Of a stretch of 64,000 bases of DNA, positions 1,598 through 61,218 are shown piece after piece. The stretch is from Morchella semilibera (taxonomy: Eukaryota > Ascomycota > Pezizomycetes > Pezizales > Morchellaceae). The notes beneath the pieces are model-generated. The model had not been told where the DNA came from, made no database searches, and saw nothing but the letters and a program-made list of their open reading frames with translations. Positions within the stretch are counted from its first letter, which is position 1, and every line of letters starts with the position of its first letter. The stretch lies in assembly GCA_009192285.1 (NCBI GenBank), contig WBVU01000005.1, forward strand, positions 1,816,731-1,880,730, read 5' to 3'. Position numbers and translations under genes: made by a program.

Positions 1598-4545
1598 AGT
1601 TTTGTCTTCGGCCGGTGAAAGAAGCGACCGGAAGGATGAGAGAAGGGGGATATAAGAGGTAGCCACGGCCGATAATTTTTAGTTGATACAAGAAAGTTTG
1701 AAGTCACGATGCCAATGTGGGGAATGATTTGGGGTTGAGAAGGATTAGCCTCTTGCGTAGCAAGGATGGTAGCCTTGCCACGTGATCTCTGCATGCTCCG
1801 GCATTTCCCGTGGCGACTAACTGCACTGTGCTCTGAAGCCCCGAAACAGCTTTATTGGAACATAAGTACATGCAGGCAAATAAGCAATTCTTTGGAGTAT
1901 AGCGGTGCTATGGAATCTGGCTCCAAGACATCTTGTATGAGCGGCCACTGGGATGAGTTAATATGGTATCAAGAAAACATCGAACTACATACTTAGATGC
2001 TACTGGTACCGGTTCGATTGTGCGTGATATATGTTAGCTGATAATTTTGGTAACTCCTTTCCCAGTATCGGACTCAGACTGTAAGGCTTAAGGAGCTCAG
2101 GGTTAGGGGTATGGTGGATTATACTTGATACTAGACGCTACATAATTATAAAGGAAGGTTATAATTCATATTGATCTATCTCAGGATCGAGCCTCCTTTG
2201 GCAAGGGCCGGGTGAAATAAGATACTCACAATGAAAATGAGTCAAAGAAACAAACCACTCTACTCCAGTAATGATTCAGTAAATAATTAATTAATTATGT
2301 ATACCCATCAAAGGCTTAGGGGCCGGGGGTTACATGTATTACGGATAAAGTTTCCAGCTATCATCAATTTCAAGAATATGCATACACACTAAAACTGGGG
2401 CTGTAGTGCGTATAACAGAGCTTAGAAAGAGCGTTAGTTTTTTGATCGATTCAAAGTAAGGTTTACTCGCGTTATAGTTGTGATATATGTAAGTACATGT
2501 AGCTGCATGTAGTATTTTTTTTTATGCCCTGGGGTTTCATATGGCGCCCAGAGCCTAAAACCTACACCCCGCTCCAAACCCCTAAGGCCCTCCACAACAT
2601 AAAGACTTAAAACAAAAACCATACTCTCACAAAGGCAATCTAGGCCTAGGTGAATATAGTTCTGTTTCTCTAAAAATATGTGTTGCCGTTGAGGAGTAGG
2701 CTACATGTACATGTAGTTTATGGGTTTTATTACCGCCAAGAAAATTTCACTTGAGGTGTGGACTGGTGGTAAGTATTAATCAGGCCCGATTAGGCTTAGT
2801 CTTACCTAAACCAATCCTCAGTCGAATTTAGAGCGCCAAGGTAACACTATCTACTAACATATCGCATTTTTAGTGACTACATGTACAGTTCAGAGATATT
2901 AAAATTGAACACTGAAGCTTTATTTGGGCAAGTACGTATCTAGTACATGTTACTAGGGATCCACCTCGCGACCGCGAGTTGTGTAAGTTTTGACCCTCGA
3001 GCAGGTACATACATGTATACATGTACTCTGGTTATCCCCCCTCCGCTCCCCCAATCCCATTCCTGCCAGTTAGACATTTCATTGCCCTGAAATTAATGAT
3101 GTAAACAAAGAAGAAAAAAACCTTTCATTGCCTTTGATGCATTGCCAAGGAGATCTTTCCACAAATGGGGGGCTCATAAACTACAATGACACAAAGAAAA
3201 GTATCGTGGCCTAGTGGTAATACACTGTATGGCCTTTAATTAATATTTTTATTAAGTATTTAAAAATGGGGTTTTGACATATAGTATCAATTCTATCTTA
3301 ATATAGTTCCGGTCTATGTACTTAGACCTAGTCCTAGCCAGGACGGTTGTAGGGTGGGTTAGGGTTGATCTGCAGAGTGGATTTAATACTGTTGTGGAAT
3401 ATATCTCTAGTAGTCTCGTGCCCATCCCCTATTTTGGTGTGGTTGGAGATGTAGTATTTTTTTAACCTTCCGGTATTGCACACCACAATAAAAAAAATAC
3501 CGATTGGGTCTGGGAACGAGACTATATCTCTAGCACATCTTAGTTCTCCTTTGCTATATGTCTGCGGTGTTAAACCTATGGAGCGGTAAATTGTCAATTA
3601 TCAACGGTAGTACATACAAGCACATATATAGTTACGCCATACTACATTAGTACATACTCAATCATTTCCCATGGACTACCAACCAAATACTTACATGTAC
3701 TTACTAGAATTTCCGACCTTTTTATTAATGAATACATGTAGGCGCATGATACAAATATATTGGCATTATATGGCCCAAGGAGTCTGTGCTTTTATCATAA
3801 AAATTGGTATTATAAGGTATAAATTCCGATATTATTTTCACCTGCGGTAAAATTGCTTTTGACATATGTATTTACCGCCCCATATGAACCCGCCGCTATT
3901 GACCAAAAATCCCCGAAAACAAACCCTAGCCCGCCTCAGAGCCGTCCCCGCTTATGACCAGGTCTAAGTAGTCGGAACCGTACTAAGAAAGGCTAGTTTA
4001 CACGTTTGACTCAAGGAGATTACTCGTAGAACCCCGAGTGTATTCTGGGACATTCACGTGGCCTGGCTAACATCACTATACTACTAGGCAATGAGGTTAG
4101 ACAAAAGGGAGGATCAAGGGTAGATGTATTCAGATAAGGTTGCGTTCAGTACAGCCAGGTTAGTGTCGAGGAGAAACTCAAAATGAATAACATTACTCAG
4201 AGAGGGAAGTAAGTAGTTGTCTCTTGGGCCATCGATAGTTACTCTGAGGTGACTCAGACGCCCCTTGAGCTCAAGCACGGCTACGATAATACTGATACAA
4301 TCCGCTTTCTATGTACAGTCGTACCCCCCGGCCTCGGACGCCCCAACTACACTGCCCATTATACTATACGCAAGCCTCGCCACATAGAGAGTTTCATTCA
4401 CTTCAAGAAGCTTGGAAAGTAGATACATGAAAGTAAAAGCCACGATAATTAGGATAGCGAAACCCTTAGGGCCTATATCAATTACAGCTCCTTATCAATT
4501 CCTCAAAAGAAATCAATATAAGGGGGTGAAATGATACAAATTGCG
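1598..4545. other. AT-rich intergenic region, no recognisable gene
   Basis: No open frame here has family features or splice-compatible coding structure; the longest frames use non-ATG starts. The stretch is AT-rich and holds a cluster of TACATGTA palindromes (2494-3740). It also has two TTAGGG-type words, GGGTTAGGGG at 2100-2109 and GGGTTAGGGTT at 3356-3366. It presumably contains the PPT1 promoter on the left and the 3' end of the next minus-strand gene on the right. Confidence 0.6.
2494..3740. repeat. Cluster of eight TACATGTA palindromes
   Basis: Exact octamers begin at 2494, 2702, 2708, 2878, 3010, 3018, 3692 and 3733; the 2702/2708 pair overlaps. About one copy would be expected in the whole 64 kb, so eight in 1.25 kb is far above chance. 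Other groups start at 17015/17035/17047, 19708/19761/19868/20002/20016 and 47461/47467/47579. No function is known to me. Confidence 0.85.
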
Positions 4546-6405: not shown

Positions 6406-7957
6406 ATGGTTTCCTCAGCTTTAGAAGAAGATGTCCCCATACTAGATATGGAAGACCCAGCTTCAGCGACGGTTGCTGTCATCGCAGAAGCTCAAACAAT
6501 CTCAGCTGGTAAGAGAACATCAAATACTTTGCCCTTCACACCTGCGTTTCTGACTTTGCTGTAGATGAGGTAGCTCTATATGATCGTCAGATTCGACTCT
6601 GGGGTATGGAGGCGCAAGCACGGTAAGGCTTATCAATGTTCATGGAGCCAAAAGTACCTACACTCGTCACATAATCGATAATCTTACGCTAGACAGAATG
6701 CGCAATGCTCACATCCTTCTCATTACCATTCGGTCACTCGCAAACGAAGTTGCAAAAAATCTCGTTCTGGCTGGGATTGGCTCACTTACGGTCCTTGATC
6801 CGGAACCTGTTCATGAGGACGATCTCGGTGCACAATTCTTCGTTGGAGAAGAACATATCGGCATGAATGTATGTTTGCGAAACTATACCTTTGGGTTTCT
6901 GGCGATTTGGCTAACAACCCTTCTTTCTAGAGAGCCGAAGCAGCTGCGCCAGCTATACAACGTTTAAACCCTCGTGTATCAGTACATGTAGACACATCCA
7001 AACTTGAAACGAAAGACTTCAATTATTTTAAGCAGTTTGACATTGTCATCGCAACTGAATTGGACATAGATAGCTTGGTACGTGCAGAATTTGGGAGTTT
7101 CTTTATCCCTGCTGACTTATTTAGCTCGCAATCAACTTCTCAACACGACAATGTGGACGCCCTTTTTACGCGGCAGCAACGTATGGTTTATACGGCTACA
7201 TTTTCGCCGATCTAATAAAACACTCTTTTGTCATGTATTTCCTTCCACCCGCTATTGCCCAATTTTCAACCCATCACTAACTTATCTCCCAGTGAACGTG
7301 AGAAGTCGAACATGAAGACAGATCTAAAAAAGGAATCTGCAACACGCACGGTCGTTGGAGTCACTGAAAAAAAGGAGGGCGAGAAGACCATTGAGTTTGT
7401 AACAAAGGAAGAAGTTTACACGCCCCTCGCGCAAGTGCTCAATTGTGAAATCGATAAGACCTGGAAGATAAGAAAGCGGAAAACTGTCCCGGCAGTCTTA
7501 CCAGGCGTGAGTGGTTAGTTGCCGACAGCGGACGTATTTACATTATGGGCTTTTTACTGATTGGTACTAGCTATATGGGCATTTCAACGGCAACACGGAC
7601 GTCTCCCAGAGTGTACAAAGAGCGATTTTGCCGAGTTTACTAAGCTTCTGACAGAAGCTAATCGCCAACTCAATCTACCTGAGGAACTTGTCCAATCCTC
7701 CTTCATTAGGTAATGGACAGAAATCCTTTTCTCTTCTTCAGTAAAAGGTTCAGCTCATTAACGACTTTTTTAGCTCCTTTGTCGAGAATGCCACTTCCGA
7801 GTTGGCACCGGTTGCTGCAATCCTTGGTGGCACCTTAGCCCAAGATGTAATCAATGTTCTTGGGAAACGAGAACAACCTTTACAAAATCTTTTAGTTTTT
7901 GATGGGACTACTAGCGTTGGCCCAATATTTGCTCTACATCCCCAGGACGAGGACTAA
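6406..7957 (+). CDS. AOS1: SUMO-activating enzyme E1 subunit Aos1 (SAE1)
   Basis: Aos1 pairs with Uba2 to activate SUMO with ATP, the first step of nuclear sumoylation. There are eight exons: 6406-6508, 6565-6622, 6697-6868, 6931-7077, 7125-7234, 7293-7513, 7571-7709 and 7774-7957. They total 1134 nt, 377 residues, normal for the family. Diagnostic features are YDRQIRLWGMEAQ at the start of the adenylation fold, a helix-loop ending in AKNLVLAGIGSLTVLD, then LGAQFFV and QCGRPFYAA. The C-terminal part has AAILGGTLAQDVINVLG and NLLVFDG. As expected for the Aos1 half there is no catalytic cysteine domain. Exon 6 uses a GTTAGT donor at 7514, chosen because the upstream GTGAGT gives the wrong frame. 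The ATG at 6406 is the only sensible start; an upstream in-frame stretch lacks ATG. Exon 4 contains the only coding copy of TACATGTA (6983). Confidence 0.95.
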
Positions 7958-9680
7958 TAATCTTTTTTCAATTCCAACATGTCACACCAAGCGTAGTAGA
8001 TTTTGCAAAATTCATTGGTGGGATTATCCGCTTTTCATTTTTTTTTTTTTGGTAACTGCGGATACCAAATGTTGACTCAATATTTCTTTTTGGCAGATTA
8101 TTTTATTACTTGTATTATTATCTAGTGTTTGGACTTGGTGATTTGGAGTTTGAATTACTTGTAGGACAAATTTTTTAGTCATCATCAAAGAGCCTAAGTA
8201 TACCTATAGCTTCATACTACTATTATTGTGTCGTGATATTAACACGAGGTACTACGCGGTCTTTACCGTAGCTATGGGAAGGCAATACCTTTGGGCTGGG
8301 CCCGCAAGATCCAAAATGTCTCATTTATATCAACACGGATCAAATGTATATGCACTGGAGATCAGACCCATATCCCAAGTCTGACCCAAGTAAAGCTGAA
8401 GCAGGTGTACTCTAAGTCAACTAACCACGTTCCCAGACCACCAGCCACCTGAAGCTTCGTATCCGGCGTTTATGCACCGCACGTTAATATCAAGTTACAT
8501 AAACATCCATTGGATCACTACTCCGCACTGTATATATGGAGATTACTCCTAAATTAAAAGGGAGCTGCAGAGCCCCTTTCTAATAAGCGGTCTCTACGGT
8601 GGATGTGCAGAACACACTAAAATAACTCCTGCCCAGGTGGGTGGATCATAGAAGAGGATGTGGTCCTCCCATTACAAAAGCGCGAAAGCCCCATGGATGT
8701 CCATCCCGGGACTAATACGTCTTTTGGTGTCCCCCCCCCCCCCCCCTTCCCTGACTAAGGGTGAAGGCCAGCAGTGTCGGCAAAACCCCCGACCAGGGCT
8801 ACAATCCAACCCCCAAAAAACCCCCACTGCAGCCCGGTTCGATGTCTTTGGCTATGCAGCTAGCTAGGCGGACATACATGTAGCTTCAGTCTGGGAGCTT
8901 GCAATATTTTGTGGGCATGAAGAACTAGCACAGAAGTCTCCCTCGCTATATGGGCGCGGACTCAGAGCGGAATCATATATATCCTCCCTCCCCTATAGGG
9001 AATTATTGCTACAAGAATCAGGGTTAGGTTTTGTGGGACATTTACAAATTGTGAAATACCAAACCTATATAAGGATACTAATAGAAAACGCTCAACCTTA
9101 CACAAGGATATCCTTATAGGGAAATGCCCTCGAATCACCATATAAAAATTGACGGTATAGGGCATTTATATCCTTAAGGGAGGGCATCCTCATACTAGCA
9201 GCGAGAGGTTGCAGTAAACTACATGCAGCTACACATATATACATACCCGGAGAACTACCAGAGCAATATTGGTCTGGCGAAGCAGGATCCCTAAGCATTC
9301 TATACGAACAAATTACAAGCTCCACATTACCCAGACCTGGTCAGAAACCCACGGCAATATAACTCGTCCGTGGAGTCAATGGCCTATTCATTCATAGTGG
9401 GTCAATGATCGATATTACCATAAATATTCCCGCCTCAAACGACGGGCATGAAAACCCGTCTGGATAAAAAAAATACAAAATTTACCCTCCTCTTTCTTCA
9501 AGCCTCTGATGACCGGCATCTGTGCAGCTTTACAGACCCTGGGCTCCAGCAGCAGCAGGCAATCGGGCAAGAGCTACACTGCAAAAGAAATCACCCCCCC
9601 GTAAAACAACTATATATATTCTTATCTGTTTATGTTGTTTGTCTGTTTTATCTACACGGGACAAAAGTCGGCCCCAAACC
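7958..9680. other. Convergent intergenic region between AOS1 and RIT1
   Basis: Both neighbours end here, so it holds two 3' UTRs plus spacer. It contains one TACATGTA (8875), a long C run near 8730-8746, and related short words (CCCTATAGGGAA near 8990, CTTATAGGGAAA near 9113, GGTATAGGGCAT near 9153) that look like decayed local duplications. I see no gene. Confidence 0.5.
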
Positions 9681-14224: not shown

Positions 14225-14240
14225 GAATGAGTGCAGTATC
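14225..14240. repeat. Target-site duplication, LINE 3' side
   Basis: GAATGAGTGCAGTATC here is identical over all 16 bases to 16401-16416. The plus-strand T run that begins at 14241 is the poly(A) tail of the minus-strand element. Confidence 0.95.
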
Positions 14241-16400: not shown

Positions 16401-16416
16401 GAATGAGTGCAGTATC
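16401..16416. repeat. Target-site duplication, LINE 5' side
   Basis: This is an exact copy of 14225-14240. The bases just outside differ (G at 16400 against T at 14224, C at 16417 against T at 14241), so the duplication is 16 bp and no longer. Confidence 0.95.
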
Positions 16417-19400
16417 CAAGTACTTATCTATATATCGCCCCGTGCCATACCGTACATATATAATAATAATAATAATAATACCAGGCGCAGGCGCCTAGAA
16501 GTACATGCTCAGCTCAATTGCGTACTCTACTCTACGAGTCGTCGTTGCCGCCGCGTGCTGGCGCTGCTACATACTTATCTAGATATATCGCTCATGTACA
16601 GCCTCGCGCAGTACTGATCTGAATCTCTCTCTCCAGCAATCATTGGTATATGTAGATGCTAATTATAAGTATAGCCACACATCTCTGCCCATCACTGCCC
16701 AAAGTGGTACTTCCTACTCATACCTCACCCCCTTGTAGACTTGTAGACTTAGTCATGCGCGGTCGTCTTTAAAACCAAGTGATCGACATTGGATCAGGCT
16801 GACGCTGATCTCTGCTAAAAATGTACAGTTTTGTAAATGTACCCTATGTATGGTAGGGCTAACGACGATAAACTACTGTAGGGCATTGACAGCTTCGGGG
16901 GTACAGATGCGAGAAAACGTGAATCGAAACGCCGGACGTCGGATGCTGTGTATTGTTTTGTTTCAGGATCGAGGTCTGTGCCAATGCTGAGTTTGACAAA
17001 CGCTTTGTCTGCTATACATGTACCCATATCCACCTACATGTACTTCTACATGTACATATGTAGGGGTATCCAGCTGATAGATTTCCCAATTCGAACCCCT
17101 TCAGACGAAACCCATCATCCATGGGGACGTTCGATACCGGCTGGCGGAACCCCGGATAGAGTGTTCTGTAGAGATAGGTATGTAGATAGCTAAAGATGTC
17201 CATGCTAGATAGAGCACTCAATCGATATCTACACCCCGCCCCCGCAAGCCTCCATGATCTTGGTCCGTGCGGTGATGGATATCACGACATCTCAAGGCCT
17301 GACACTGTATTGGATTTTTTTTTCCTGCTCTGATTTAATTCTCACCACCATCTCGTGCGTGTCGTGCTTCGTGCGTGTTTTGTTTGCATCTGAGCTGCGT
17401 AAACACATAACGTCAATATCCACCACCACCACCACCAACCCCCCCCTATCCTCCTATCCAATCCTTCTCCTTGGTCCTCAATCCTCGCGATCAAATCGCC
17501 TCGATGCCTCTCTCCCGTGGCACGGCGAAACTAAGCGAGGCCCGCCTGACAGAGCAGGTTGTGGAGGTGGCCGGTCGGAGAAACAAAAGAAGAAGGGGGA
17601 GAAGAAGAAAAAATTCCTCGATTCGCTGCGTCGCGATGCACCGCCCGAACCGTGAATCTCCGATTGGGGGGGGAAAGGGGAGAGGGATGGAGCGAGTGAC
17701 GTCCCATGATTGGTCTAGAACACGCACTCATGAGAGAGGGCATTACATTTTGATACCCCCCCCCCCACCTCTTCCTAGGAGATGAGCACAGTAAAAAAAA
17801 AAATCTCTCTTTCGCTGTCGGCCGCTTTGCGCGGCTGCTACATAACTTCTACATACATGATACATAATACCACAGGATACCCGTTTGTCAAAAACATGGC
17901 ACGCGTGGGAGATGGGGAAGGGGGGGGGAGAAGTTGCAGGTATCGTGGATTTGGGCCTCTATCGGTACGTTCGGTGGTGGGCTAGGGGTAAAGAACTGAC
18001 ATCTCCGAGAGTATCATGTACATGTAGTCCCGTCTTCTCCTCGTATGTACATATTGTACAGGTACGGTTTTGATCTGGGCCGAAGAGGGAAAAAAAGAAA
18101 GAAAAAAAGGAATGCTCCCCGTTAATCCTAATTATAAAGAAAATTAGAAGCTGTATTAATATTATTAGAGTAAACTATTTCTCCATGTGCTCGCGGTTGC
18201 GTTACCTTACCTGGATGGTGGGGATAGAGCAAGATAGCTTTAGCTGCGATCCCTTCCCCCGCAAATTCGCAATTGGGCCGAGATATGGTTACAGGACATT
18301 GCTTGATGTACCTCTACATGATGTTTTTAATAAGAGGTACATATGTAGAGAGAGAGGAGAGAGAGCACTTGTACCCCCCACACTATACTTTGCTGGGTAG
18401 GTACATACACGTAGAGAAGGCATGTGAGAGCAGTACTGCACGAGAGAGAGACAATTGGCTGGCTGAATATATTCGTGTGGGGGAGATACATGAGTAAGTT
18501 GGGTGCTGCTCTCATACTCTCTCTACTTTCTACCTCGACTACACTCTACCTAAGTAATACTTGGAAGATGCAGAACATCTACTTTCGAGAAGGTACACAC
18601 AGGACAGGCACAGAAACAGAAAGAGAAACAGAAATTGGTTAGGGGGGGGGAGAGAAAGGAACATGCTTTTTCCGGGGGAGGCGTGTGTTTCGTTTGCTCC
18701 GATCGCGATACTGGGTAGGCCGGCCAGATCTCAGTGTCCACATTCCATGTCCACTTTTTATTTTTTTTATTTTTTTATTTTTTTATTTTTCTTTTCTTTC
18801 TTTCTTTCCTTCCCTTAATGGGGCCCGTGTCATGGGAATTTAGGGGGGGGGGGGGGCGAGGGAAAGAAGGAAAGAAAGATTCATGGATCTCTTGGATTTT
18901 TCAATGCTTTGCTTTTTTTGTGCGTTTCTTTATTTGGAGACTCACATATCTATCTACTACTACATAACTACGACCTGGGGAAGTGTAGAAAAGAAAAAGT
19001 TATGATACTCCCACATTATGTAGCGATAAATGTACAACGCAGATCCCCAAAACCCAGGATGATTTTAGCGATATTTTGTTTTTGCGCTTCCTGGCGCCGC
19101 GCCCCGTACCATGTCGGGTAGGAGAATAGTGGGGTGGGGTGGTCAGTGATCTGGATCAATCAATGTATGGTGGGGTCAACTCAACTCAACCTCGACAAAC
19201 CCAACTCAGGGACCAGGGACCGAGTTCTGCCCGGTCCTAGACTCCTAGCTGGTCCCCCCTCTCCCCAAAAGAAAACACAAGACTGACCTTGCCTACATGT
19301 ATGTACTTGTATGTTTTCTGTATTTCCAACACGGCCAGTATCGATACTGCCCATTATTTATTTGTCCCCCGCCAGGTTCGAATTCTTCAGCTGCTATAAC

Positions 19401-19768
19401 ACCGCCGCCGGCGGCAGCAGCTCCGGACTACCCCCCTCCCCCTCTCCTCTCTCTCCCCCCACCGTAAGGCTTTCTCCTCGGGTGGCTTTGGCCAGTCAGG
19501 CAGCCATGGCATGGAATGCCACTGCCACTTAAGAAGCTGACTGACTTACTAAGAGAGAGAGATAGAGATAGAGATATTACAATAGATAGAGCAGATACGG
19601 ATTGCTTCCTGGCAGGGAAGGTCGGCCTGTCAATCGGAAGTCGCCGGGATTGAGAGCGGCGGGGATCAGGAGAGGATTCGCAGTGCAGCATGCACTCGGT
19701 ACGTAAGTACATGTATTTTACTCTATCGGTGGAGTAATCTTCACCCCGCCTTTTCCAATCTACATGTA

Positions 19769-19792
19769 GGCAGGCAGGCAGGCAGGCAGGCA
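19769..19792. repeat. GGCA tetranucleotide microsatellite
   Basis: Six tandem GGCA units start directly after a TACATGTA octamer. Confidence 0.9.
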
Positions 19793-20535
19793 GAGGAAAG
19801 GGTTCTACATACTGGAGATAACCGTACATACAGCAGGAATGTAGGCAGTGTAGGCAGAGCAAATAGATACATGTAGTATCCATTGACTGGCTGATTGATT
19901 GATGATTAATAGTATAATAGTACAGAAACAGTCAGGCTGTGTGCTTTACCGATATCATATCGTATCTTCAAGTCAAACAAGTATCATGTAGGTATTGTAC
20001 ATACATGTATGTAGCTACATGTAGGCAATCAAGCAAGCAGGAAGGAAGCAGGGCAAGTGAATCAGTGAATCAGTGAATTGAATTGAATCAAGCAAAGTGC
20101 ATACATTTTTCTCGAATGTATATATGACATTGCACTGTCAGACAGAGAGTTGGATCGCTGTAGCCCACTCATCTGCTCATCCCCTCATTCACTGTCTACC
20201 TATCCTGTCCTGTCTCACGGCTACCACTACATTACATACTTCCATCACCACCTCCACCTCTCCACCTCCACCTCCACCACCTCCACCACCTCCACTGTCC
20301 TCCACTGTCCTCCACAATCCTCCACTACCAACCTCCAACAGTAACTGTACATAACAACGACACCGAGACAGCCAATTTCGAATCACACCAGCAATAGTTT
20401 GGTAACAATATAGCGAGTGAGTGAGCGAGTGAGTGAGTAGTGCGCACCCATTTAACAAGACAAGTAAGTTAAGAAGCACATGAAAAGAAGGAAAGAAAGA
20501 AGAAAAGAAAAAGAAAAGGAAAGGAAAGGAAAGAG

Positions 20536-20546: not shown

Positions 20547-20613
20547 GTCGAGCAAGCAGCGAACCAGAGCTCCCCAACGACCGAATCCATCCAACATTTC
20601 CAACATTTCCACC

Positions 20614-22056
<1,443 letters not shown>

Positions 22057-22417
22057 AGGGAAGAGTGTGTGGTAGGTTAAAGATTCATTTTCTTTTGACT
22101 TCTCTCTTTCCTTTTTTTTTTTGTTTCTGCTTGCGATAGTACAGCCGAGATATCACTGATTATCCGGAAGTAGAGAATATAAAAGCCCAATAGCAGTAGA
22201 AAGAGAAAGAGAAAAACCCCACATTGCACAATTTCTCGTAGAAAGTGTATATGGATATATGTAAGCATTTGAAGAAACTCATCATTTTTCGCACATGATT
22301 TTAAAACCAAAGAACCTGTTGTACACAAAAGAATGGTAGAAAGAAGGTTTTAAAAAAAAAGTAGTTAGAAAAAAAAAACCATATTACTATAAACATCCAA
22401 TTTTTTCCCCTTCCTGT
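22057..22417. other. Convergent 3' region FUR1/ELF1
   Basis: These 361 bp separate two converging stop codons and must carry both 3' ends. The stretch is AT-rich with A and T runs; I see no gene. Confidence 0.5.
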
Positions 22418-33742: not shown

Positions 33743-33778
<36 letters not shown>

Positions 33779-38200: not shown

Positions 38201-40680
38201 TTTCTAGATTTCTACATCATAATATCACAGTACATGTACAACAATGTGGAGAAAATGGGTTAGGAAAAAAGGTAGATCCGGCAGAACGAACATGTTACTC
38301 TACCTTAGGTACATGTAAAGTACCTTGCTATATATACAGCTTACAGGCCCCCCCCCTCTTCTTCCCCTAGAGCACCACCCTTCCCGAGAGATTTTCAAGG
38401 TGCATGGGGAAGGGGGGAGAGGCACGACCGTTACGGGATGGGAGGTGATCGTCCTGGCCTGTCGTAAAGCCCAGAACCGAAGGATGGTGGTTATCATGAT
38501 AAAAAAAAATGTGGTCTTCACTTCTTGAGTCAATCTCCTTGCTTCGCTTCGATGCAAGTGTATCTGTGGGCGTCAATCAAATTCTAACAGACAGACAAGA
38601 TAGTAGATAGAGTGCCTATGCGTATGCCATGTACTTACTGTCTATAGCAATGAAAAGATATCGGCCGTGCTTTCCTTAACTTCCCATCCACTAATTCATT
38701 CTCTCATACTCCATCCTACTCATACTCGCTCACTCACTCACCCTCACCCTCCCACGCATAATAACACTCTACTTTCAGAACTGTTTCTTCCAGGCATTCC
38801 GTCTAATCCACCCCTCACACACCCCCCCCCTCCCTTTCCCTTTCAATCATGTAAACGGGCGAATGAACATGCTCGTAGAGCGAGAGAAACCGAAACCCCG
38901 CTCCGGACCATGTAGATTAGGTCTTTGCGGCACGAGAACGGAGTGTTGGACACATACCCTACACCTCAGGATGTATATATCCGGTGTCACTGATAAACCT
39001 CTATTCCTTCCTCCCATCCCCCGCATCTGCCACTTTTTCACCCCTCCCCCATATTTTTTTTTAGAAGAAAATGATCCCAACTGCTCCTGTGAGTATGAAA
39101 CCCCTACCTGCCTTGGAGTTTCAACCATCTCACTCGGCTCTCTCTAACAACACCCCCCATTAACCCATTAAGGGTATCCTCCATCCGAGGGTGGATGGGA
39201 ATAAGGATTAGGTACGCTGAGTAGTTCTGGTCAACGAACATGTGTGAGCGAGTATCCCCGAACGAAGAGAAAGTAAACACCCGCAGCAAGAGGCGCATTC
39301 TTGGGCTTGGCCGGTATGTAGCTTCGGTGTTGGTTTTCCACTTCTCGTTTCTTCCATTAGAGAAGAGTTTTCCTTCATGAGGCAATTATTATAATTTTCC
39401 CATTTTTATATAATATGTGCATGTAGCACAGCAACACATATACATCTTTTGGTTATTGAATTGATACACCGAGGTAATGACTTCTTGTACATACTTCTCC
39501 GTCCGTACCTACCCGGAATCCCATCCGGTGTAAAGGTGGCAGCATACAAAAAGATACTTACGAAACCTTCAAAAAGGACTTGGCCAGGGTAAATTCACAC
39601 CACCCTCCACCAACAATATATATACACCCAATAGCTATTCATCCAATACCCTTGGATATTTCAACCAACCAATATGGCTCGCTCTCCGGCCCAACGAAGC
39701 AGAAAATAATTATTCTGGCGCCACGCCATCATCACTTTCCTCTCCCTATCGCTCTCCACATATCACTTTTCCGTTCTCCTCTGGGGGGCTTAGGTATAAG
39801 AGAGCAGCCTCTACCGTACCCACATCCTTGGGTTGTCCATGAAGCTAGAACGAGGATCTGTCCAGAAGAAGGAAGCTGCATGTCTGATAGCCCCCCTCGT
39901 CCTCGCTTCTGGGTATCTTTAATCACGTTTCGGATCGCTCATTCGACCGACGAGAATTGGCGAAAAGCATTAGAGGGATATCCTGAGTCTTAGTGTCGCC
40001 TTGATCTGCTGCTGGCAGTTATATTCTTCCCCGGAATCTTTAATAAAATGTGGAGCCCACCAGATCAGTAGCGCCCTTCATGGGAGTTTTGATAGTTCTG
40101 CGAGGGTGGACGTTTACGGGTCGCCTTACCATGGAAGATCTGCAGAAGTTCCAAGAGAGGCAATATCAATTTTTTTTTTTCTAACACCCCCCCGTGGGCG
40201 CCCCTAGGCTTTGGTTATTGGCTGTCAGGCGATCCAATCCAGCAGGCGAACCGGCCGGCAAAACAACAAATCAGCAAACATATACTAACATGTATCCATG
40301 AAACAAACCCCTTCCACCACCACCATCCCTTCATGTAGAGTAACTATAAAATTTTCAGGGAAAATAAAACCATGCCCCTGTCTTAGCCTGACCTGACCTC
40401 CCCTACGAAGAATGGTTGTACATGATTGATATCATAATGTTTATAATCCTCAACTTTAACGTCACGTCATCTTTAATTTCATTAGTTAGATCACGACCGG
40501 CCAGCCTACTCTCGATCAATCCTTTCTATGTTCACCTTCCGGTAAAATTTATTCCATAAATTTCCCCTTTAGGTGGGACCTCTCTCTTTTGGAAGAGGTA
40601 GTTTCGAAAAAAGTAATGATTCCGGGAATGGCCAATATAAAACGTTGATCTATCTCATAGGCTGTCTGCCATATGTGTAA

Positions 40681-40764: not shown

Positions 40765-43700
40765 CTGATACCACTCTATCCCGGGCCTGTCCAGCACAGT
40801 CTGCCTACATACTTATGCAAGGCCGCGTTATTAGATGGTTAAAAGTGAGATGAGAGAGCAGAAAATGTCAATCATCAGAACTACCCCCCCCCTACCTGTG
40901 CATGGTCTGCAGGTGTTAAGATACTCGATTTTTCATAAGCTGGTTAAACGCACGACGGAGAGATTCGGGAGATTGTTGGGATGGCCAGGGTGGTGACAGC
41001 AGGAGAGGACAGATGGGACGAAAACCAGGGATTGGCAATCTGGCGCGCCTTTAAAGTATTTCGGACCGGACTGCTCTCCCCCCGCTCCACCCCCCCTCAT
41101 CATCGGCCGTTAAACAGAGTGCCAAGTCGGATTGTCCCGAAGACAAAAAAAGTGAGAGAGGCTAGGGAAGGTGCCGCAGAGCCTCATGGAGCTCGGGCGC
41201 GGGGGAAGGAGAAAAAAAAAAGTGGGGATCGGTAGATCGACTGATCGCTAGGCTAGTCGAGCTCTTTTATTTTTCTTACTTGGAATCCTTACTGTTCCTG
41301 GACAAGCTGTCCTACAGCTGAAGGAAGAGGAAACAAAAAATTCAACCACAGGTCATTAACCATCAAGAATTTTTATTTTTTATTTCCCTCCCTCGATGAG
41401 AAGGGCATGAGTCAGCTACTACGAATTAATTGCCACGAACGTGGGCAATTGAAGGCAGCTAGCGGGAGAAAAATAGGCTGAATTTTATCGCGGCAAGAGG
41501 GGAAAATACAAGCTACATTGGGCGCAGCTGATTGCTGATCTTGAAGAAACCGAGTTGTGGGAAATGCCGTGTTGGCTCACTGTCGTGGAACCTTGACGGG
41601 GGAAAAAAAAAAGCTGAAATGTGAGGAAACGTAAGTCGTCACTGTAGTTTTTATCACGGCATTCTAGCTTAAGCATTGTAATCGCAGCCGTGTGCAGGTA
41701 ACCCTGGCCCTGGTCCGTCGAGCTCTGCGATGGTGATGGTTTATTCAAGGATTTCGAATCGAGATAAGAGCCCAGACTTGCCTTCCCGCATGCAGAAACA
41801 TGTAATATACATATATACATGTATTAGAGATGCACTTGGGTCACAGATGAGAAATTTGTCGCGAATCTGTGGTGATCTGTACCTGAATTGATTCGATAGT
41901 ATTCCTGACTTGATAGGTGTCTGGTTGATCGAGTATCGCCATCTTATTTTTGCTACCCACCAAGGTATGCAGGAGCTCCGGGGTCAAAAACAACTTACGA
42001 CAACATCCCGTCTGATGGCGGTTTCCTCCCTTTCTTTTCTTTTTCTTCTCTCGCTAGACCTGGGGATCAGGGGAGGTTTGGACGTCTGAAGCTCAATTGA
42101 CGCAAATTTCGATCATCGTGGGCCGTCTGTTAAGTTCGAGCGCTCAGAGCGCTAAATGTGTTGCCATACAACCGTAGTACAGGAGAGGGGTTCGTATAAA
42201 CCAAAGAAACTTCTGTTTAAACTTTCCATAAAAGGTGTCATAAAACAATAAGTTATAGCACACGATCATGGTATCACATCTAGTGCTATAGGTTCAATAA
42301 TTAACCCTCTTCCAGATGTTAGTAAAGCAATCGAAGCATTGTGGCTTTTAAGAGCAGTATGTAATAGAGATGAATTGTTCCCATGTTTCAAGAGGCTGCA
42401 TGTAATCATGGGTTAACATACATATTATGATTAGGTACGATTCAAGGCAGTCTTGTTTGCCGGGCCCGATAATACACCCCGCTTATTGGTTAGTGCATTA
42501 AAGTTTCGGAAAGAGGCTTGGATCTTGAGCGCTATTACCAAATAAAGTCTTAACCGTCGTAAACCATCTACATACCCCATAAGTGCGGACCCCGCTCTGC
42601 GAGTCCCTTAATTAAGGTAACTTGCCTACCATGCGGAATTCCACGTGAGGGTAAGTAACAATATGTGGGGAAGACTCGTGATGATAATTTTTATGAGATG
42701 AGCCGGGAGGTACGTATGTGGAGACAGAACGCTTCGCCAATATGCATTTTGAGGATACACAACAGAGATCTGAAATTCTCCGCATCTCGAGTACTACCGA
42801 ATTTCAGATTCTCGCCATTGATGCAACATTAATCATGCCTAGAGAGAATTTTTTCTGCAACACAATTGTGCAGAGTGGATAGCAGTTCATCATCGAGTTT
42901 GACCCACCCGTAAATCAATAGCTGTTTCAATATTGTTCGTTTCTGTCATAACTTGCATCCCAGCATGAGTACATGTGTGTATCACTCCCGGCCTTTATAC
43001 ATATAGCCAAGTACATGTATAAATAAGTCACATGTACGTATGCATCCCCTTTTGCAAAAAAAGAATAAAAAAAAATTCGGGGTACGGTATCATACAAGAA
43101 ACGTACGAGGCATTGATCTGCGAAGGGAATAAATCATTCTCTCTCGTAAAGCCAACCAAATCGATCAACACTCTCGGAATGTGGCGGAAACATTCAATAT
43201 ACTCGTTTACCACCATAAGAACCAGTTTCTCAGGGCAAGGATAATTTGTACGGACTGGCGATGATCTCTCCTACAAATCATCTCTGTTTCAGTCACTTGA
43301 GTTTTCTAGTTCTTTTCGTGGTGAACGATTATGTTCTTGAGTGGCTTTGGTGTTTGTTTTTTTGTTTATTGCCGCCCTAAGAGAATTCGTGTTCTTGAAG
43401 TGCTAAGTGGCTGTCATGAATAATTTATCGTGCATCATACTGCATCTGCCAAGAACCTGCTCTCAACGTCTCGTTGTCTCAGAAAGGTTGTGAGACGACC
43501 AACGCCAGTACTAGTCTTGATAAGATATTGAAACCTCAGGCTAGAAACGACACCCATTCTGGCATCGCCAACCCCATCACGTCATTCCCGGAGAGGAATA
43601 AACCATGCACCTGAGTCCGACAGCATATATAGGAATTGCAACATCAATTGGCTTGAATTGCAGTTTAGAGCCCAATAAAAGGAGGACGATTGTATTCAGC

Positions 43701-46407: not shown

Positions 46408-48016
46408 ATGGAGAAAAAAAAAATTTATATACTGAAACGGATTTCGGGGTGTTCTTTTTTCCTTCCTTCCTCTTGTTACTGAATAAAAAAAAATTGGGTC
46501 CATCTCTCAGATAAGGAGTAATACTCAATAAATCAGCAAATATTCCCGTGGGCAACAAGACAACAGTAGAATTGGGTCGAAAGTGTGTAACTACGAACAC
46601 GAAGCTGACTTGTATTTTCGATGAGCCTTGTTCTTGATGGCTATGTGGTGTCCGTTTTTTTCATTTTATCGCCTGATTTCTTTTCTTTTTCATTTCCATG
46701 TATTCAACTTTTTTTTTTTTCCCTCTTTCGATCCCAGGGAAGGATGCTCTAGTTGCGGATATGCATGGCCTAAATACAGTTCTCTCGTTTCTAGAGTGGA
46801 ACCGAGAATAGATACCATTTCTGTGCTGTAGTCCGTGTTCTGAATATCGCATAGGCTATTGCTGTAGGAGGCTGTGGAGCTTTGAGAGCTGTTGATCCGA
46901 CTTTGAGTGTGTGCACTGAAGTGCGGTCGCGTGGACCGCCGCTGGCCGAGGGTGGTTGAGTCATGTGGTTGATATTATGTCTATGAAGTCTTATGTCGCC
47001 CACGTGTGGTGTAAGTGTCAACTATATAGGTAATGTAAGCACGGTGTAGTGAAGTGTGTTGTGAGTGCGTCGTCGTCTTTGACTTGATATCTGTGCTGAC
47101 GATCTCTTGGCTGTTGAGGCGTTTATTTGCTACTGCATCCACTCAACATAGCTATTGGCGCGTTGGAGATTTCTCGTGAAACGGTTGACATGTATTCACT
47201 TATGCAGTGTGTTTCTCAACAATGCCCAGTGCCCTTTTACTTTGCTCACGCGGCACGAGCAGGAGCATACGGCAAAGTATTGGTCGCTTCGCGTTTCTAG
47301 TACTTGTTTGTTGAATCAGGAGATATTTAACACTGGTATTGCCTTAGCTGGTCCTAGTCTTTGGAATATCAACTTTTACCTTAGCTACTCCTTGGCATGT
47401 ATTGTACTTAGATTCTATCAGTTTGTAATTTATTTGTCATCAGTTTTAGCTAAAAAAAAATACATGTACATGTATCTCATCTTCATGTTTAGAAAGATAG
47501 TAATTGCTTGTTTTATCCTAATATTTGTACTCAAGGTTTGTATCATTATAAGGCGTATCATTTGATCATAATTTAATGTACATGTACTTGTAGTTGTGTA
47601 GCAACATGATATTGAACCCATGCCCAAACATAAAACAAATGCTGTCATTGGGCAAGCAAGGACAGCAGCACTAACAACCCTTAACACCTCCAAGAACAAC
47701 GTCGTCTTCTCTGCCTCTAAGACTCTGACAAACTACTGACGTCGTCGCTCGCTACTGTTTGAGCCTCTTCTTTATCATCCTGTTACAGTAGAAATTACTG
47801 TGCACATTACTATTGCCCTTAGAAAGGTCCCTACATTCACCATACCTGGTCCCCCCCAAGCTTCAACCCAAAATCTCTCCACCACAGACAGACACGGACG
47901 GGCACACAAACGCAAGCATAGATCACACACCACACCACTAATATCCACTCTCCATCCTACTTCAATACACATACTACAACAACCTTACATAGAAATTCCT
48001 CAGTGATCACCGCATC
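46408..48016. other. Intergenic region rps1 / Rab gene
   Basis: This contains the rps1 3' UTR and, from about 47,700, the promoter and leader of the next gene (C/A-rich). Three TACATGTA copies lie at 47461, 47467 and 47579. An open frame at 47155-47565 begins with TTG and has no family features, so I do not call it a gene. Confidence 0.5.
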
Positions 48017-52608: not shown

Positions 52609-55504
52609 TGTGCTTGCGTTGTTTTGTGGAGCGATTTTCCGTCGTGCAAGTTGAGTGGATCTCTAAAAATTTCGAGGTGAAACAAGCCTTGGACGGGTAA
52701 TCGTGCGTCAAGTTACCCTTCCAGAAGACCCTGGTCCGCAGATTTACACGCATAACCCTAACCCACAATACACATTCTACAACCTCATTCAAACCCAGGG
52801 TCGGTAAAGAAAGCCTCATTTTCTGATCGATTCAAAGAAGCACGTTCGGACACGAAATGGAACGATTTGGAGGAACTTCCCCGCAGTACAAGTCAGATCA
52901 TAGCTACGTAGGAGGCTTTGTCAAAGCTACCTATGATTTCAACTGCTCACATAATAAGCAAAATGATACACGCAAACTCCGAAGTAGAATACGGGTGTAA
53001 CCTTGACAACCACCACCACCACCGTGACAACCTTTAAGCGTGCTGACTTGGTCATGGAATCGGGGAATGATATCGAATGCATGTTTCATTTTTTGTTTCT
53101 GTGTGTGGTGGTAATTCATTTATTTTATTGCCACGCGGAGGGGCTTTTGGCTACTAGCGTACATGTAACCTCCTCTCCTCACCAACATGTTAGGTATGTG
53201 CCGGGTGAAGTTGAGGGTTGACGCGCCGACTCGGCGCTATCTTTTAATTCTTTTTACTCTTTTTTACCCCCCCCCCCTTCTTGTCTTGGTAGGTTTTGTG
53301 TTTGTTTGTATGTTGGGGGATTAATAATGTTGGGTACGGTGTTCGCGCCGTCCGACAATCCCCGCTCAAAATATCCTTAAGTGGAGAATCCAGCTGCATT
53401 TGCTCGCCGGTGATCGACGGTTTAGTGGTATGATTATGGCTAGCTGGAAGCGAGATCCCAATCTACTGGCTTGACTTTAAGGGGTAGGTAGAGGAGTTTG
53501 GGTTATCGATAAGGTTGGGCCCGATACCGAGGCTTTGAGCCTCATGTCTATCTTGCCTAGAGACTGAAACGGCAGCAACGGACCCAGGAGGGGTAGGGAT
53601 ATTCTGCAGCCAATAGTTGTACGTTTATTCTGGGCAACGTGGTCAAGATTTGCTTGATTTAAGCATTTGTGGGAGGTGAATCGATGGCCAGCACATCAAA
53701 GGTGTTGAGATTTCCGATATAGTGGTTCGCATAATCCTTCACCCGGGAGAAAGAGTAAATCCCCGTTTTTGGTAACACTGGGACTTGGAGGGAGGGGGTG
53801 GGGGGGGGATAGCGAACCTCTTTTGTGATACACTAGCTCATAGGAGGTGTGTATGTGCGCGCGCGTGTGTGTGCCTTTGGAATATAACTCTTATGAAATC
53901 AAGGCGAGGTGCTGAAGAGTACATACATGTAGGTACGGTTTATTCAATTGAAACTATATCCATCGTCCATAGGCTTATGGATCTGTAACGATGTTGGAAG
54001 CGGTCGAAGGCATGTGAATAGGCAGTGGATGTTCGGGAAGGAAGCCTTAGCGTTGAAACCACATGGCCTTCCAGAAAGTCCAAAAACACGCCACCATCTG
54101 ACATCCATCGTGAAATCCGGCATGCCTCCTGCGTGCGTTGAACATACTATAGTAGATCCACACGACTTTGCCTTTTGTGCAAAAACAGAAACAGTCTCCC
54201 GCTCAAGAAAGCCCCCCCCCCTCCCCCCACCCCTTTCGGCAACTTACACTATTGGGGTCACATCCATTCCTCGATTGTCTGTGATACAAAATCAAAGACA
54301 CCAAAGAACGGCCAGGACCAGGGAAGGACCAAGGAGTAGGTAAGTATATTACTAGATACAGTGGTATGGAATGTACGCAGCACTCCTATGTGAATCTGTA
54401 GTCAGGTTCCACCGTTTGTCTCCCGGGAACCTTCCGTATTAAGGAGTAGCAGATTATGTAACTTATCATTTTTTGCACGCCCTGTTCAGCCCAAAAACCA
54501 ATGGCTGAAGAGAACGAACTAAAAGAGGCACATGCCCAGGACTCCACAGTTCCACCCCCATATACAAGAGGGAACAGTAACAGAGAAACGATCTTCGATC
54601 TTACGCGTGTGATTGCTATTCACGGTATTAACTGTAAGCTCTCCGAAGGATAAACTTTATGACGTCCGAACTTTACAGATAGCTGAGCTGCTGTGAGATA
54701 CCTAGACTGATGTGAGATACCCTAGATCATTGTGGACCTATGAAATCTGTGGGCCTCTGAACCCTTCATTCTATTGACCACATCTACGTAGTAAGTTGTC
54801 CTCAAAGACACAAACCACAAAACCCTTGCTAAATATCGGAAACGCCAGGAGAAGAAGGAAAGACGAGGGCGGAAAAAAAAAAAAAAAAAAGGAAAGGAAA
54901 GAAAAGGAAAGGAAAGAAAAAGGAAAAAAGAAATAGAAAAAGAAAAAAGAAAAAAAACACCAACGACAAGCAGAAGCAGCGAACCACAAAGGCAACCTAC
55001 AGAAACCACCAACCCAACAGAAACCCACACTCTGCCTCCCCGTACCCGCCGCCAACTCTCCCCCTACTAGGTTGGGGGCTTCTGCTCATGCCGCAGCAGC
55101 CTCAAAAGTCACACTACCTCCTAAGGATTCAAGAAGTGTCCTGACTGGATTCAACTGTGCATTGCTACACACCTAGAAAAATAAATAAAATAATACCACT
55201 CCAGAACACGCAATACGACCAGCTCTCCACATTAAATTAGCAGTACCTTTCGGGGAAATACACAGGCGAGTACCAACGTCTCGGGATTCGCTTTTTGTAA
55301 AGAAAGTTGTTGGTTGTGCCGGAGACCGAGTCTTGGTGCAACAACGACGTCCTTGCTGTCAAGTCAGTCAGTTAAATCCCTTTCCTTTTAGTTTCCCAGG
55401 CCTCCACTCTCGGATCCTTTACCCCCCATGAAATACGCTGAAACACCCGCCTTCAAATACCTACTGTGATGATATTGAGCGTGACACTCTTATAAACAAG
55501 CTAA
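52609..55504. other. Intergenic region AC19 / hybrid histidine kinase
   Basis: This holds the RPC19 promoter on the left and the kinase promoter on the right. TACATGTA occurs at 53160 and 53924. A short ATG frame at 54501-54653 (starting MAEENELKEAHAQDS, with a PPPY) could be an isolated exon but has no support. An A/G-rich tract spans 54870-54955. No gene is called. Confidence 0.5.
52754..52764. promoter_or_regulatory. Telobox-like site (AACCCTAACCC) upstream of RPC19
   Basis: A clean two-unit CCCTAA repeat lies 146 bp upstream of the RPC19 start codon. In fungi such sites are associated with Tbf1-type regulation of ribosome-related genes, which suits a Pol I/III subunit. Confidence 0.5.
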
Positions 55505-59713: not shown

Positions 59714-59793
59714 GAATAGAGTGAGGATCGAACTCACGCGGGTTGCCCCACTAGCACCTGAAGCTAGCGCCATAACCACTCGGCCATCTATCC
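59714..59793 (-). tRNA. tRNA-Leu (anticodon CAG), intronless
   Basis: The 80-nt minus-strand sequence starts GGATAGATGGCCGAGTGG and folds as a class II tRNA. The acceptor stem GGATAGA pairs with TCTATTC (one G-T). The anticodon stem CTAGC/GCTAG encloses the loop TTCAGGT with anticodon CAG. The variable arm is GGG-CAA-CCC, and the T stem is GTGAG/CTCAC with loop TTCGATC. Both A and B boxes are intact. A T5 run follows about 10 bases downstream on the minus strand, suitable for Pol III termination. Confidence 0.96.
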
Positions 59794-61218
59794 ATATGCT
59801 TCATATATTAAAATTTCTTTATATATTCAAGTACTTAATCATGTCGCAAACGACGAAGCGTTTAATTCTTAGGGTAGGAAACATATGAGCCCAAGCCGAT
59901 ACATGCCTGTACGGTCCTGTACGGTCTCCCTCTCAGTTGGTGGTGGGGTATAAAGTGTTTTCCCTCCCTTCCTCTTTGGGCGGGTCCTTCTAGCCCCCCC
60001 CGTGTTGACCCAATTTCAATGGGTACATTAGAAGGACTACATGTACCTACTAAAGCCCGTTTGAATTAGAGAGTGTGTAGCTAGCCAAGAACCAGCTGCG
60101 GTTAACCTATTTAGGAGTAAAATCCTTGCTCACTTTCTACACCATGGTGGGTTGATACGAGTGATGATTCGTGAATGTATCTGGAAAAAAGAAGCCAAGG
60201 GTTCTTCAACTTGGAAACACTCCCCCCAATCAGGTAAAATCAATCCTGAAATGGAACTAGTTATGTGTAGCTGCCGACCACTATTTCGGCTTCAGCATAA
60301 TTTGGACCGAAGATCGGTTTTTCGGGCCGGCACTGACTTTTAGCGCAACGTGTTCAATACTCACAAGCCCAACGAGTCGAAGGAAGCGGAATAACTTGCC
60401 TCAAAGTATTCTTGTTTGATCCCGGTAGTAATATGGGATAACCGGTCAGTAGGGTTTGAACAAAGGGATGTAAAGTTATGGGTATATCTATATATGTGTG
60501 TGTGCTAGGATACCAGCTACATTCAGCTGTCAATAGAAGTATATTCGGAACGAATGAAGGTAGGAGCGATGAAACCTGTTTTTTTCTTTCTTCTACTCTT
60601 TCCTCGAAACATAAGCGGCGGTCTTCCTTGTACTCACCTTGGTATGTACTCAGACGGAACTACGGAGGCACTCAGGACCAATAGCATAAAAAGTGGGAAG
60701 AGTATCTTTTACCTGCATAAGTTGTATAAACAAATCTTTCTAGAAGCCATGCATGTGGCTTGCTTCTGATCTGTCCTAACCTCTCACAAATACTTAAAGA
60801 ACTGAGACCTCCTGAACCACGCCCGCATTTGTATCATTGGTCCTCGGCCTCACTCAAAAGAAAACATTCCCGCCCATCTCATACCGATGTGCCGTTTATC
60901 GGCATTGATTCTCCTTCTTAGTTTGATTGGCCGAATTTCTTTTTATGACTTACCAGTCGGAATAAGATTATGACACCGGTAGCTAAAACAGTGTTTCTGG
61001 CAGGGTTAGGGTTGTCATGTGCACTAGATTTTGCCGGGTGTCTTTCTGCTCCGGTTGTTAAGCTGCCAATTTTTCGTTGGCCACAAGGGGGCGGAGGTGG
61101 TGAGCTTAAAAGTGAGCAACAAAACGACCGACAAGCGATCTCTTTACCTTCATACTTCTTACAGTCATTTTCGATTTCAAGAAGGGGCGGAAGGACGAAG
61201 AAAAGGGAGGATTTCATA
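59794..61218. promoter_or_regulatory. Intergenic region tRNA-Leu / SLP1
   Basis: One TACATGTA occurs at 60038. The right part must hold the SLP1 promoter, including a telobox-like site at 61003-61013. The reading frame of SLP1 is open upstream to ATG 60970, but that extension lacks signal-peptide character. Confidence 0.5.
61003..61013. promoter_or_regulatory. Telobox-like site (GGGTTAGGGTT) upstream of SLP1
   Basis: Two TTAGGG-type units lie 206 bp before the preferred SLP1 start. If the upstream ATG at 60970 were used instead, this motif would be inside the coding region, another reason to prefer 61219. Confidence 0.4.

Follow-up and report, generated by a model that had tools for sequence, protein, structure and literature searches.

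A highly abundant palindromic octamer in a filamentous ascomycete is probably an excision footprint of IS630-Tc1-mariner transposons

The palindromic octamer TACATGTA is found as 39 exact matches in the window (the whole 64-kb stretch of DNA that was analysed) and as 22,206 copies in the complete genome (56.8 Mb) of the source, a filamentous ascomycete. Very probably most of these copies were left behind by excising DNA transposons of the IS630-Tc1-mariner (ITm) type, with MITEs of the type CAGCGA...TCGCTG as the probable source. Copies with a readable earlier state show a bare TA, which strongly supports one of the explanations first put forward for the word, i.e., the footprint of a small mobile process. 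The high copy number of TACATGTA can be explained without the alternatives proposed with it, a dimeric factor or a methylation or chromatin mark. A later co-option of the scars by dimeric factors is possible.

Abundance and distribution of the octamer

The high count of TACATGTA as such is confirmed. All 38 starts listed in the original prediction are exact matches, but the list was short by one copy, at position 2331. Dinucleotide-preserving shuffles of the window give a mean of 0.84 and a maximum of 4 copies (100 shuffles). A larger sample of 244 kb, consisting of the window and 18 stretches of 10 kb (allelic L018 and L021 left out), contains 123 copies, where Markov models of order 1, 2 and 3 predict 3.1, 4.7 and 7.8, respectively. 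The corresponding enrichments are 39-, 26- and 16-fold, so that the claimed forty-fold excess is reproduced at low Markov order but drops to ∼16-fold at order 3. In the sampled sequence TACATGTA is the top-ranked 8-mer by excess over the order-3 model. Unrelated palindromes do not share this excess to the same extent, since the next-ranked palindromic octamers in the 244-kb sample reach only 19-fold (TATATATA) and 17-fold (ATATATAT) at order 1, versus 39-fold for TACATGTA, followed by CGCGCGCG (14-fold, 11 copies), GCGCGCGC (9.6-fold, 9 copies), GTACGTAC (9.0-fold, 14 copies) and the reversed-letter control ATGTACAT (6.8-fold, 24 copies). Genome-wide this control occurs 3,723 times, a count to which nested TACATGTA copies contribute, as they also contain ATGTACAT. 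The extended form TACATGTAGGTA, noticed at the outset, is real as well, with 763 + 729 copies versus 1 + 5 for the reversed word, and beyond position +4 of the octamer the flanks hold at most ∼0.04 bit of information per position.

In the 244-kb sample, 0.97% of the noncoding TAs (123 of ∼12,650) bear the octamer. One-letter variants of TACATGTA are raised in the same sample, with 88 transitions versus 36 expected and 86 transversions versus 70 expected, and this transition-biased excess fits decay of TACATGTA copies. None of the 123 copies lies in predicted exon (59.6 kb), as defined by a home-made coding HMM that overlooks short exons, including the exon at 6983. The copy at that position is indeed coding, as originally stated; it is the one coding copy identified, lies in an exon of SUMO-activating enzyme subunit 1 for which PDB chains of human SAE1 give a gap-free alignment, and is a chance run of codons rather than an insertion.

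The positions of the octamers and of two MITE copies in the window are given in Table 1. A longer repeat or a MITE that would bring the octamer along in its body was considered and is ruled out, since the similarity between copies ends with the octamer and its near flanks. For the regions around 18 of the 39 copies, only a few short matches were found elsewhere in the genome, none of which runs across an octamer. Rfam and tRNA scans of the window reveal nothing but one tRNA-Leu. A search for rRNA gave only a dispersed 5.8S-like fragment, which scores under the Rfam cut-off.

Table 1. Octamer copies and associated elements in the window.
Feature	Position	Strand	Basis
Nine TACATGTA copies: 2331, 2494, 2702, 2708, 2878, 3010, 3018, 3692, 3733	2331..3740	.	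Exact matches
MITE family 1 copy, TA at 2702 turned into TACATGTACATGTA (2702/2708 nested double scar)	2538..2764	+	Family alignment
MITE family 2 copy (element 3411-3524), flanked by its 9-bp target duplication TATCTCTAG, unscarred	3402..3533	+	Family comparison
Coding copy, Val-His-Val codons, SUMO-activating enzyme subunit 1 exon	6983..6990	+	Translation and human SAE1 alignment
TACATGTA copy	8875..8882	.	Exact match
Three copies: 17015, 17035, 17047, single-copy DNA	17015..17054	.	Exact matches, genome comparison
TACATGTA copy, single-copy DNA	18019..18026	.	Exact match, genome comparison
Six copies: 19294, 19708, 19761, 19868, 20002, 20016, single-copy DNA	19294..20023	.	Exact matches, genome comparison
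Four copies: 28727, 28818, 29176, 29681, single-copy DNA	28727..29688	.	Exact matches, genome comparison
Four copies: 31108, 31494, 32188, 32332, single-copy DNA	31108..32339	.	Exact matches, genome comparison
Two copies: 38231, 38310	38231..38317	.	Exact matches
Two copies: 41816, 43012	41816..43019	.	Exact matches
Three copies: 47461, 47467, 47579; first two nested as TACATGTACATGTA	47461..47586	.	Exact matches
Two copies: 53160, 53924	53160..53931	.	Exact matches
TACATGTA copy	60038..60045	.	Exact match

Insertion of CATGTA at TA dinucleotides

The birth of the octamer can be read in two mutually unrelated MITE families. MITE family 1 comprises 29 genome matches to window positions 2480-2780, including the window copy itself. 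At one position in 21 aligned rows of this family, 13 copies have a bare TA, 2 have TACATGTA and 2 have TACATGTACATGTA, the other 4 being uninformative. At an internal TA of MITE family 2, 20 of 22 rows are bare, one is uninformative and one (L007) carries TACATGTA, with a clean gap of 6 bases between L007 and its sister copy L068.

The ends of MITE family 2 provide a second type of record. Both ends were found in 36 copies from the 42 loci examined, and in 25 of these the 9-bp target duplication is in place at 8/9 or better. In L058 and L121 the duplication is perfect (9/9) and shifted off the element by exactly CATGTA; one further copy is displaced by TTATA and 8 are unclear. A second set of 30 copies, chosen for CATGTA at the end of the element, includes 7 with a recognisable duplication, which is displaced by CATGTA in L140 (9/9), L138 (8/9) and L153 (8/9) and undisplaced in the other four. 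L153 is of low complexity, and because a second offset fits equally well its displacement is ambiguous, so that a CATGTA-displaced duplication is observed in four family 2 copies, with L153 as an ambiguous fifth. Target duplications displaced by 4 bases are absent from both sets. Together, six positions (the family 1 site, L007, L058, L121, L138 and L140) document the change from a bare TA to a short insert with TA on both sides. Since sister MITEs have a bare TA and target duplications are pushed out by CATGTA, it is evident that a CATGTA inserted next to a TA can give rise to TACATGTA. On 400 TAs of MITE family 2, two certain and up to four scar events are observed (0.5–1%), to be compared with the 0.97% of noncoding TAs in the 244-kb sample.

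A microsatellite origin, by slippage or expansion of (TACA)n/(TGTA)n, would agree with the raised counts of TACATACA/TGTATGTA (63 versus 14 at order 3, in the sample including allelic stretches) and with the existence of double TACATGTA copies spaced six bases apart. However, slippage cannot turn TA into a palindrome, and L007, L058, L121, L138 and L140 had no CATGTA to copy, as the sister or duplicated target is a bare TA. These bare TAs rule out slippage as the main origin and make it an extremely improbable explanation of the word, while some of the double copies may have arisen in this way.

The insertion origin also bears on the proposal that TACATGTA is the site of an abundant homodimeric factor (a TALE/Irx-type homeodomain protein or another CATG binder), built and kept by selection. 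The word is self-complementary, it is favoured by Irx factors and corresponds to an abundant upstream motif of Phytophthora that correlates with expression (both as described in PMC3520976), and the BEN domain of NACC1 has been crystallised on DNA containing it (PMC11472053). Moreover, at more than 500 bp upstream of gene blocks, defined by rough gene models that miss exons, octamers are 1.5–1.75-fold over the TA-weighted expectation. Closer to the same rough gene blocks, however, they are depleted on the 5′ side (2 versus 8.6 expected at 0–250 bp; 2 versus 6.3 at 250–500 bp), and on the 3′ side the numbers are 1 versus 8.7 and 5 versus 7.3, respectively. In addition, the word is born by CATGTA insertion at TA, within and at the edges of MITEs, and its one-letter variants show a transition bias. 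A factor site would be expected to originate by substitution and to prefer promoters, whereas an insertion origin and a depletion within 500 bp upstream are observed, and it is therefore an unlikely explanation.

Candidate source elements and a proposed excision model

The genome contains Tc1-like elements and MITEs ending in CAGC...GCTG, together with 69 DDE_3 and 96 DDE_1 transposase-domain matches. Three Tc1-like elements (L033, L034 and L037) have open frames and CA...TG ends, and MITE families A and B likewise end in CA...TG. Elements that combine such ends with TA duplications are present in the genome. One element, bounded by perfect terminal repeats of 20 bases (TACAGCGGTAGG...CCTACCGCTGTA) and containing an open frame of 366 aa, is present at two different sites in copies that are 97.8% alike. 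The six inserted bases equal the duplicated TA plus the two terminal bases from each end of such resident elements.

MITE family A (TACAGCGGTAGGTAATAAG) was rejected as the main source because its targets are GTAC, with C at +1 in 97% of 61 ends; its flanks nonetheless score above random TA sets (P 0.026). MITE family B, with ends CAGCGA...TCGCTG (TACAGCGAYAGGAATGAT), gives 70 pattern matches in the genome versus 10 for the reversed control. Under a model of the octamer flanks, 22 family B ends score 0.61 and the octamer flanks themselves 0.68, in contrast to −0.68 (sd 0.30) for random TA sets, none of which reaches the family B score in 20,000 draws. The Jensen-Shannon value of family B (0.183) falls within the range of random octamer subsets (95% point 0.194), but it is not far from the 5% point for random TA sets either (0.174), which makes this second measure weak at n = 22. 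By the flank score, the octamers sit in the target context of MITE family B. Like the Sleeping Beauty/Tc1-like target ANNTANNT (PMC2756404), the flanks of the octamers and of family B have T at +3 (A at −3); they differ from that target, as described there, in avoiding A at +1 and preferring A at +4. The 70 family B matches are few compared with the 22,206 scars, and none of the DDE_3/DDE_1 matches and open frames found could be tied to family B as an autonomous partner.

From these similarities we infer both the excision step and the identity of the source family. A non-autonomous ITm element (MITE) would insert at TA in a ANNTANNT-like site, with duplication of the TA. On exit, the transposase would cleave two bases inside each 5′ end, such that CA and TG are left behind, and fill-in and joining would yield TA-CA-TG-TA. 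Further rounds at the newly made TAs could produce nested forms such as TACATGTACATGTA, and the scars would accumulate in noncoding DNA and then erode through ordinary mutation. Published ITm footprints span 2–4 bp (PMC7913693, as far as described there); in the 244-kb sample, TACATA, which would stand for a 2-base footprint, is observed 319 times versus 157 expected at order 2, only a 2.0-fold excess.

The uniformity of the insert could also fit another DNA-level process, e.g., an enzyme, repair or methylation system that makes or keeps the word. The HIP1 octamer GCGATCGC of cyanobacteria, also a strongly over-represented palindrome, is an example of such a word with a link to methyltransferases (PMC4390886). 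In contrast to HIP1, TACATGTA arises via insertion at noncoding TA, a six-base insertion that a HIP1-like repair model would not seem to predict, and the six bases match the duplicated TA and terminal bases of elements living in this genome, within flanks like those at the targets of one MITE family. A process of this sort is thus highly improbable.

Filled, scarred and empty alleles at one orthologous site were not found in a single attempt, in which an element in C22 lacks a listed counterpart in C21 and the compared stretches have no homology. The sampled haplotype pairs are 99.95% (L017/L018) and 99.67% (L020/L021) identical, and the listed differences are short indels (for the second pair, listed up to alignment column 3267). 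Because the pairs are near-identical and differ by short indels, they have no power to reveal TA/TACATGTA polymorphism.

Related words in other organisms and implications

The original remark that no role had been described for the word needs amending, as TACATGTA has been published as a Phytophthora motif, a Tc1 footprint and an Irx site (PMC3520976). In C. elegans the identical word, TA + CA + TG + TA at TA targets, is an excision footprint of Tc1 (Eide and Anderson 1988, cited in PMC3520976). It is rare there, whereas 22,206 copies are present here, with a fungal MITE or Tc1-like family as the presumed source. The same abundant noncoding palindrome is found in Phytophthora as motif-1 TACATGTA (PMC3520976) and as M93/M94 TACATGTA/TACCGGTA (PMC3597505), and TACCGGTA likewise consists of TA, two bases, their complement and TA. 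Unlike the fungal word, these motifs were interpreted as transcription-factor sites (PMC3520976, PMC3597505), the footprint reading being dismissed in the former study on grounds of abundance and conservation. Among the matches listed from the open-access literature, no paper describes a fungus in which TACATGTA is in excess across the genome.

If the footprint reading is true, what resembles a control signal is for the most part a relic of past transposition. Such scars tend to be counted singly; at the abundance seen here, past cut-and-paste events would become countable even after loss of the element. The case also calls for caution in motif finding, as transposon scars can take the form of palindromic words that are abundant in noncoding DNA and have informative flanks. 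The displaced target-duplication test is simple and applicable to Phytophthora genomes. More speculatively, one Tc1-like lineage with a near-fixed four-base footprint might have scarred ∼1% of the noncoding TAs, the scars providing both new TA targets and a palindrome usable by factors; the oomycete promoter motifs TACATGTA and TACCGGTA would then largely be scars, some of them co-opted.

Abundance and probable decay of the octamer

The octamer TACATGTA occurs 22,206 times in the genome (56.76 Mb, 23 contigs), compared to 3,723 times for the reversed word ATGTACAT, and a 244-kb sample contains 123 octamers where Markov models of order 1, 2 and 3 predict 3.1, 4.7 and 7.8. Distinct sites are somewhat fewer than 22,206, because the assembly is partly doubled as near-identical haplotypes: sampled stretches of contigs C9 and C10 are 99.95% identical and those of C12 and C13 99.67%, while C21 and C22 have many common matches at a slowly drifting offset. 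In the window, all 38 starts of the original prediction stand and one further copy, at 2331, had been missed, giving 39. The single copy described as coding, at 6983, indeed encodes Val-His-Val in SUMO E1 subunit 1, where the gap-free alignment to human SAE1 indicates chance rather than insertion. Two regions with 18 of the 39 octamers (16700-20150 and 28600-32500) are single-copy save for a few short matches, none covering an octamer, in a search that skips simple repeats.

One-letter variants of the octamer are also in excess (174 versus 106 expected at order 2), mainly as transitions (88 versus 36) and less as transversions (86 versus 70), as expected of decay. TACATA is 2.0-fold over order 2. 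Two-base scars are scarce here, although footprints of ITm elements span 2-4 bp according to an excerpt of PMC7913693.

Coordinates of mobile elements and other annotated features (bare numbers are window positions; L-numbers are stretches fetched from the genome)
Feature	Location	Description
MITE family 1 copy	2538-2764	recorder of earlier states
MITE family 2	3411-3524; L058-L077, L118-L132	about 98-132 bp in most copies; 9-bp target duplication, presumably MULE-like
MITE family A	L082-L117	about 103-117 bp; ends TACAGCGG
Tc1-like element	L033 (C2); L034 and its allele L035 (C9, C10)	1.68 kb; 20-base perfect terminal repeats TACAGCGGTAGG...CCTACCGCTGTA; open transposase frame of 366 aa
Reverse-transcriptase fragment (RVT_1)	15678-16427	adjoins an octamer cluster; apparently a non-LTR retrotransposon remnant
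Uracil phosphoribosyltransferase-like gene near GTP-cyclohydrolase-II-like gene	21364-26647	perhaps a uracil-catabolism (URC) cluster
Ribosomal protein eS1	45640-46212	best matches PDB 7r81 and 5oql, from Neurospora and Chaetomium; places the organism among the filamentous ascomycetes
Hybrid histidine kinase	55505-58153	single exon; HisKA, HATPase, receiver and PAS domains; N-terminal MEDS (DcmR sensory) domain
5.8S-rRNA-like fragment	L029:1501-1672 (C19:2699587-2699758)	under Rfam's cut-off, amid ordinary DNA; probably a dispersed rDNA piece

Origin of the octamer at TA in two MITE families

Two unrelated MITE families record the state that preceded the octamer. At one position of family 1, the TA is bare in 13 of the 21 rows aligned, those 13 including an allelic pair; L038 and L056 have TACATGTA, the window copy and L053 have TACATGTACATGTA, with four extra letters in L053, and four rows are uninformative. 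The four scarred rows may go back to one ancestral event and are therefore tallied as a single position. TACATGTACATGTA, an overlap of two octamers six bases apart, is also the commonest close pair (three in the 244-kb sample).

Family 2 has at least 41 genome matches. An internal TA is bare in 20 of 22 rows and is TACATGTA in L007, with one row uninformative; L007 aligned to L068 shows a clean six-base gap. Both ends are present in 36 of 42 loci examined, the other six being L007 and five family-1 loci (L133-L137). The target duplication is in place, at 8/9 or better, in 25 of the 36; in L058 and L121 it matches 9/9 yet is shifted by exactly CATGTA, in L075 it is shifted by TTATA, and eight give no clear reading. 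The family 2 end followed by CATGTA has 65 genome matches (≤2 mismatches, alleles included) and the reversed control none. From these a second set of 30 loci chosen for CATGTA at the end (29 newly fetched, L065 re-used) has a recognisable duplication in seven. It is shifted by CATGTA in L140 (9/9), L138 (8/9) and, ambiguously, L153 (8/9), where a TAT repeat lets a second offset fit equally; in L143, L147, L148 and L166 it is unshifted and itself contains CATGTA (CATGCA in L166), the MITE having inserted beside a word already present. No duplication shifted by four bases is found in either end set. Thus at six positions and one ambiguous one, a bare TA came first and the scarred form differs from it by the addition of CATGTA.

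Of 400 TAs in the 36 family 2 copies, two are scarred with certainty (L058, L121), and counting L065 and the word common to L118 and L127 brings the events to at most four; the rate is thus 0.5-1%, in a family that is no random pick, as it was met via a chance match to the scarred L007, itself outside this count. Approximately 0.97% of the TAs in HMM-noncoding DNA carry the octamer, an underestimate because of missed exons. Scarring of noncoding DNA at the family 2 rate would thus suffice for the genome total.

Flanking preferences and candidate source elements

Read outward on both sides of 131 octamers, allelic sites included (without them the result is the same), A is scarce at +1 (0.11), the preferred letter at +3 is T (0.60) and at +4 it is A (0.50), with at most ~0.04 bit per position beyond. 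The previously noted extension TACATGTAGG(T/C)A follows in part from these preferences; the most frequent 12-letter extension is TACATGTATGTA (17 in the 244-kb sample). The two sides look independent of each other, with T at +3 on both sides at 57, on one side at 71 and on neither at 27 of 155 sites, a set that also takes in transposase loci and loci retrieved for TACATGTAGGTA.

An element with CA...TG ends and a TA target duplication would leave a four-base footprint, TA + CA + TG + TA, and taCATGta is named as a Tc1 footprint in an excerpt of PMC3520976. The genome has 69 DDE_3 and 96 DDE_1 transposase-domain matches, and eight of the DDE_3 loci were cut out. Among these, the Tc1-like element occupies two different sites with copies 97.8% alike; it has possibly moved recently. 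Closely related ends are present in L037, and the CAGC start is common to L031; the pattern TACAGCGGTAGGTAAAAAG (≤3 mismatches) has 328 genome matches versus 11 for its reversed control.

Two MITE families with CA...TG ends were set against the octamer flanks. Insertions of family A are almost all in GTAC, with C at +1 in 97% of 61 ends, a context that does not match the octamer; TACATG adjoins nine of its 61 ends, where existing octamers seem to have been re-used as targets. Family B (pattern TACAGCGAYARGAATGAT, 70 matches versus 10 for the control) has A at.05 at +1, T at.59 at +3 and A at.50 at +4 in 22 ends, i.e. 20 fetched and two of L016. On the octamer-flank model the octamer's own flanks score 0.68, those of family B 0.61, family A -0.09 (59 ends) and random TA sets -0.68 (sd 0.30); the family B score is reached by none of 20,000 random TA sets and that of family A by 2.6%. 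The Jensen-Shannon comparison is weaker: family B is at 0.183, where random octamer subsets have their 95% point at 0.194 and random TA sets their 5% point at 0.174. The T at +3 recalls the Sleeping Beauty target consensus ANNTANNT, as stated in an excerpt of PMC2756404. In L177 a family B end lies directly behind TACATGTA, as if a scar had been re-used as target, like those of family A.

Position relative to genes

A binding site for a dimeric factor, the reading in print for Phytophthora (excerpts of PMC3520976 and PMC3597505), gives no reason to expect new octamers to be born by insertion at TA. Around 62 rough gene blocks, octamers are over-represented beyond 500 bp upstream (ratios 1.48-1.75), as such a site might favour, but scarce just 5' (2 versus 8.6 expected at 0-250 bp, 2 versus 6.3 at 250-500 bp) and, at the same distances, just 3' (1 versus 8.7 and 5 versus 7.3); farther out on the 3' side they are near expectation (ratios 1.02-1.08). 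This distribution could reflect insertion preference or retained function, and some scars could have been co-opted as factor sites. The octamer excess is real and genome-wide, and the words are most likely excision scars, excision being the step that we infer. As such they are a mark of a known kind, unusual in scale and uniformity.
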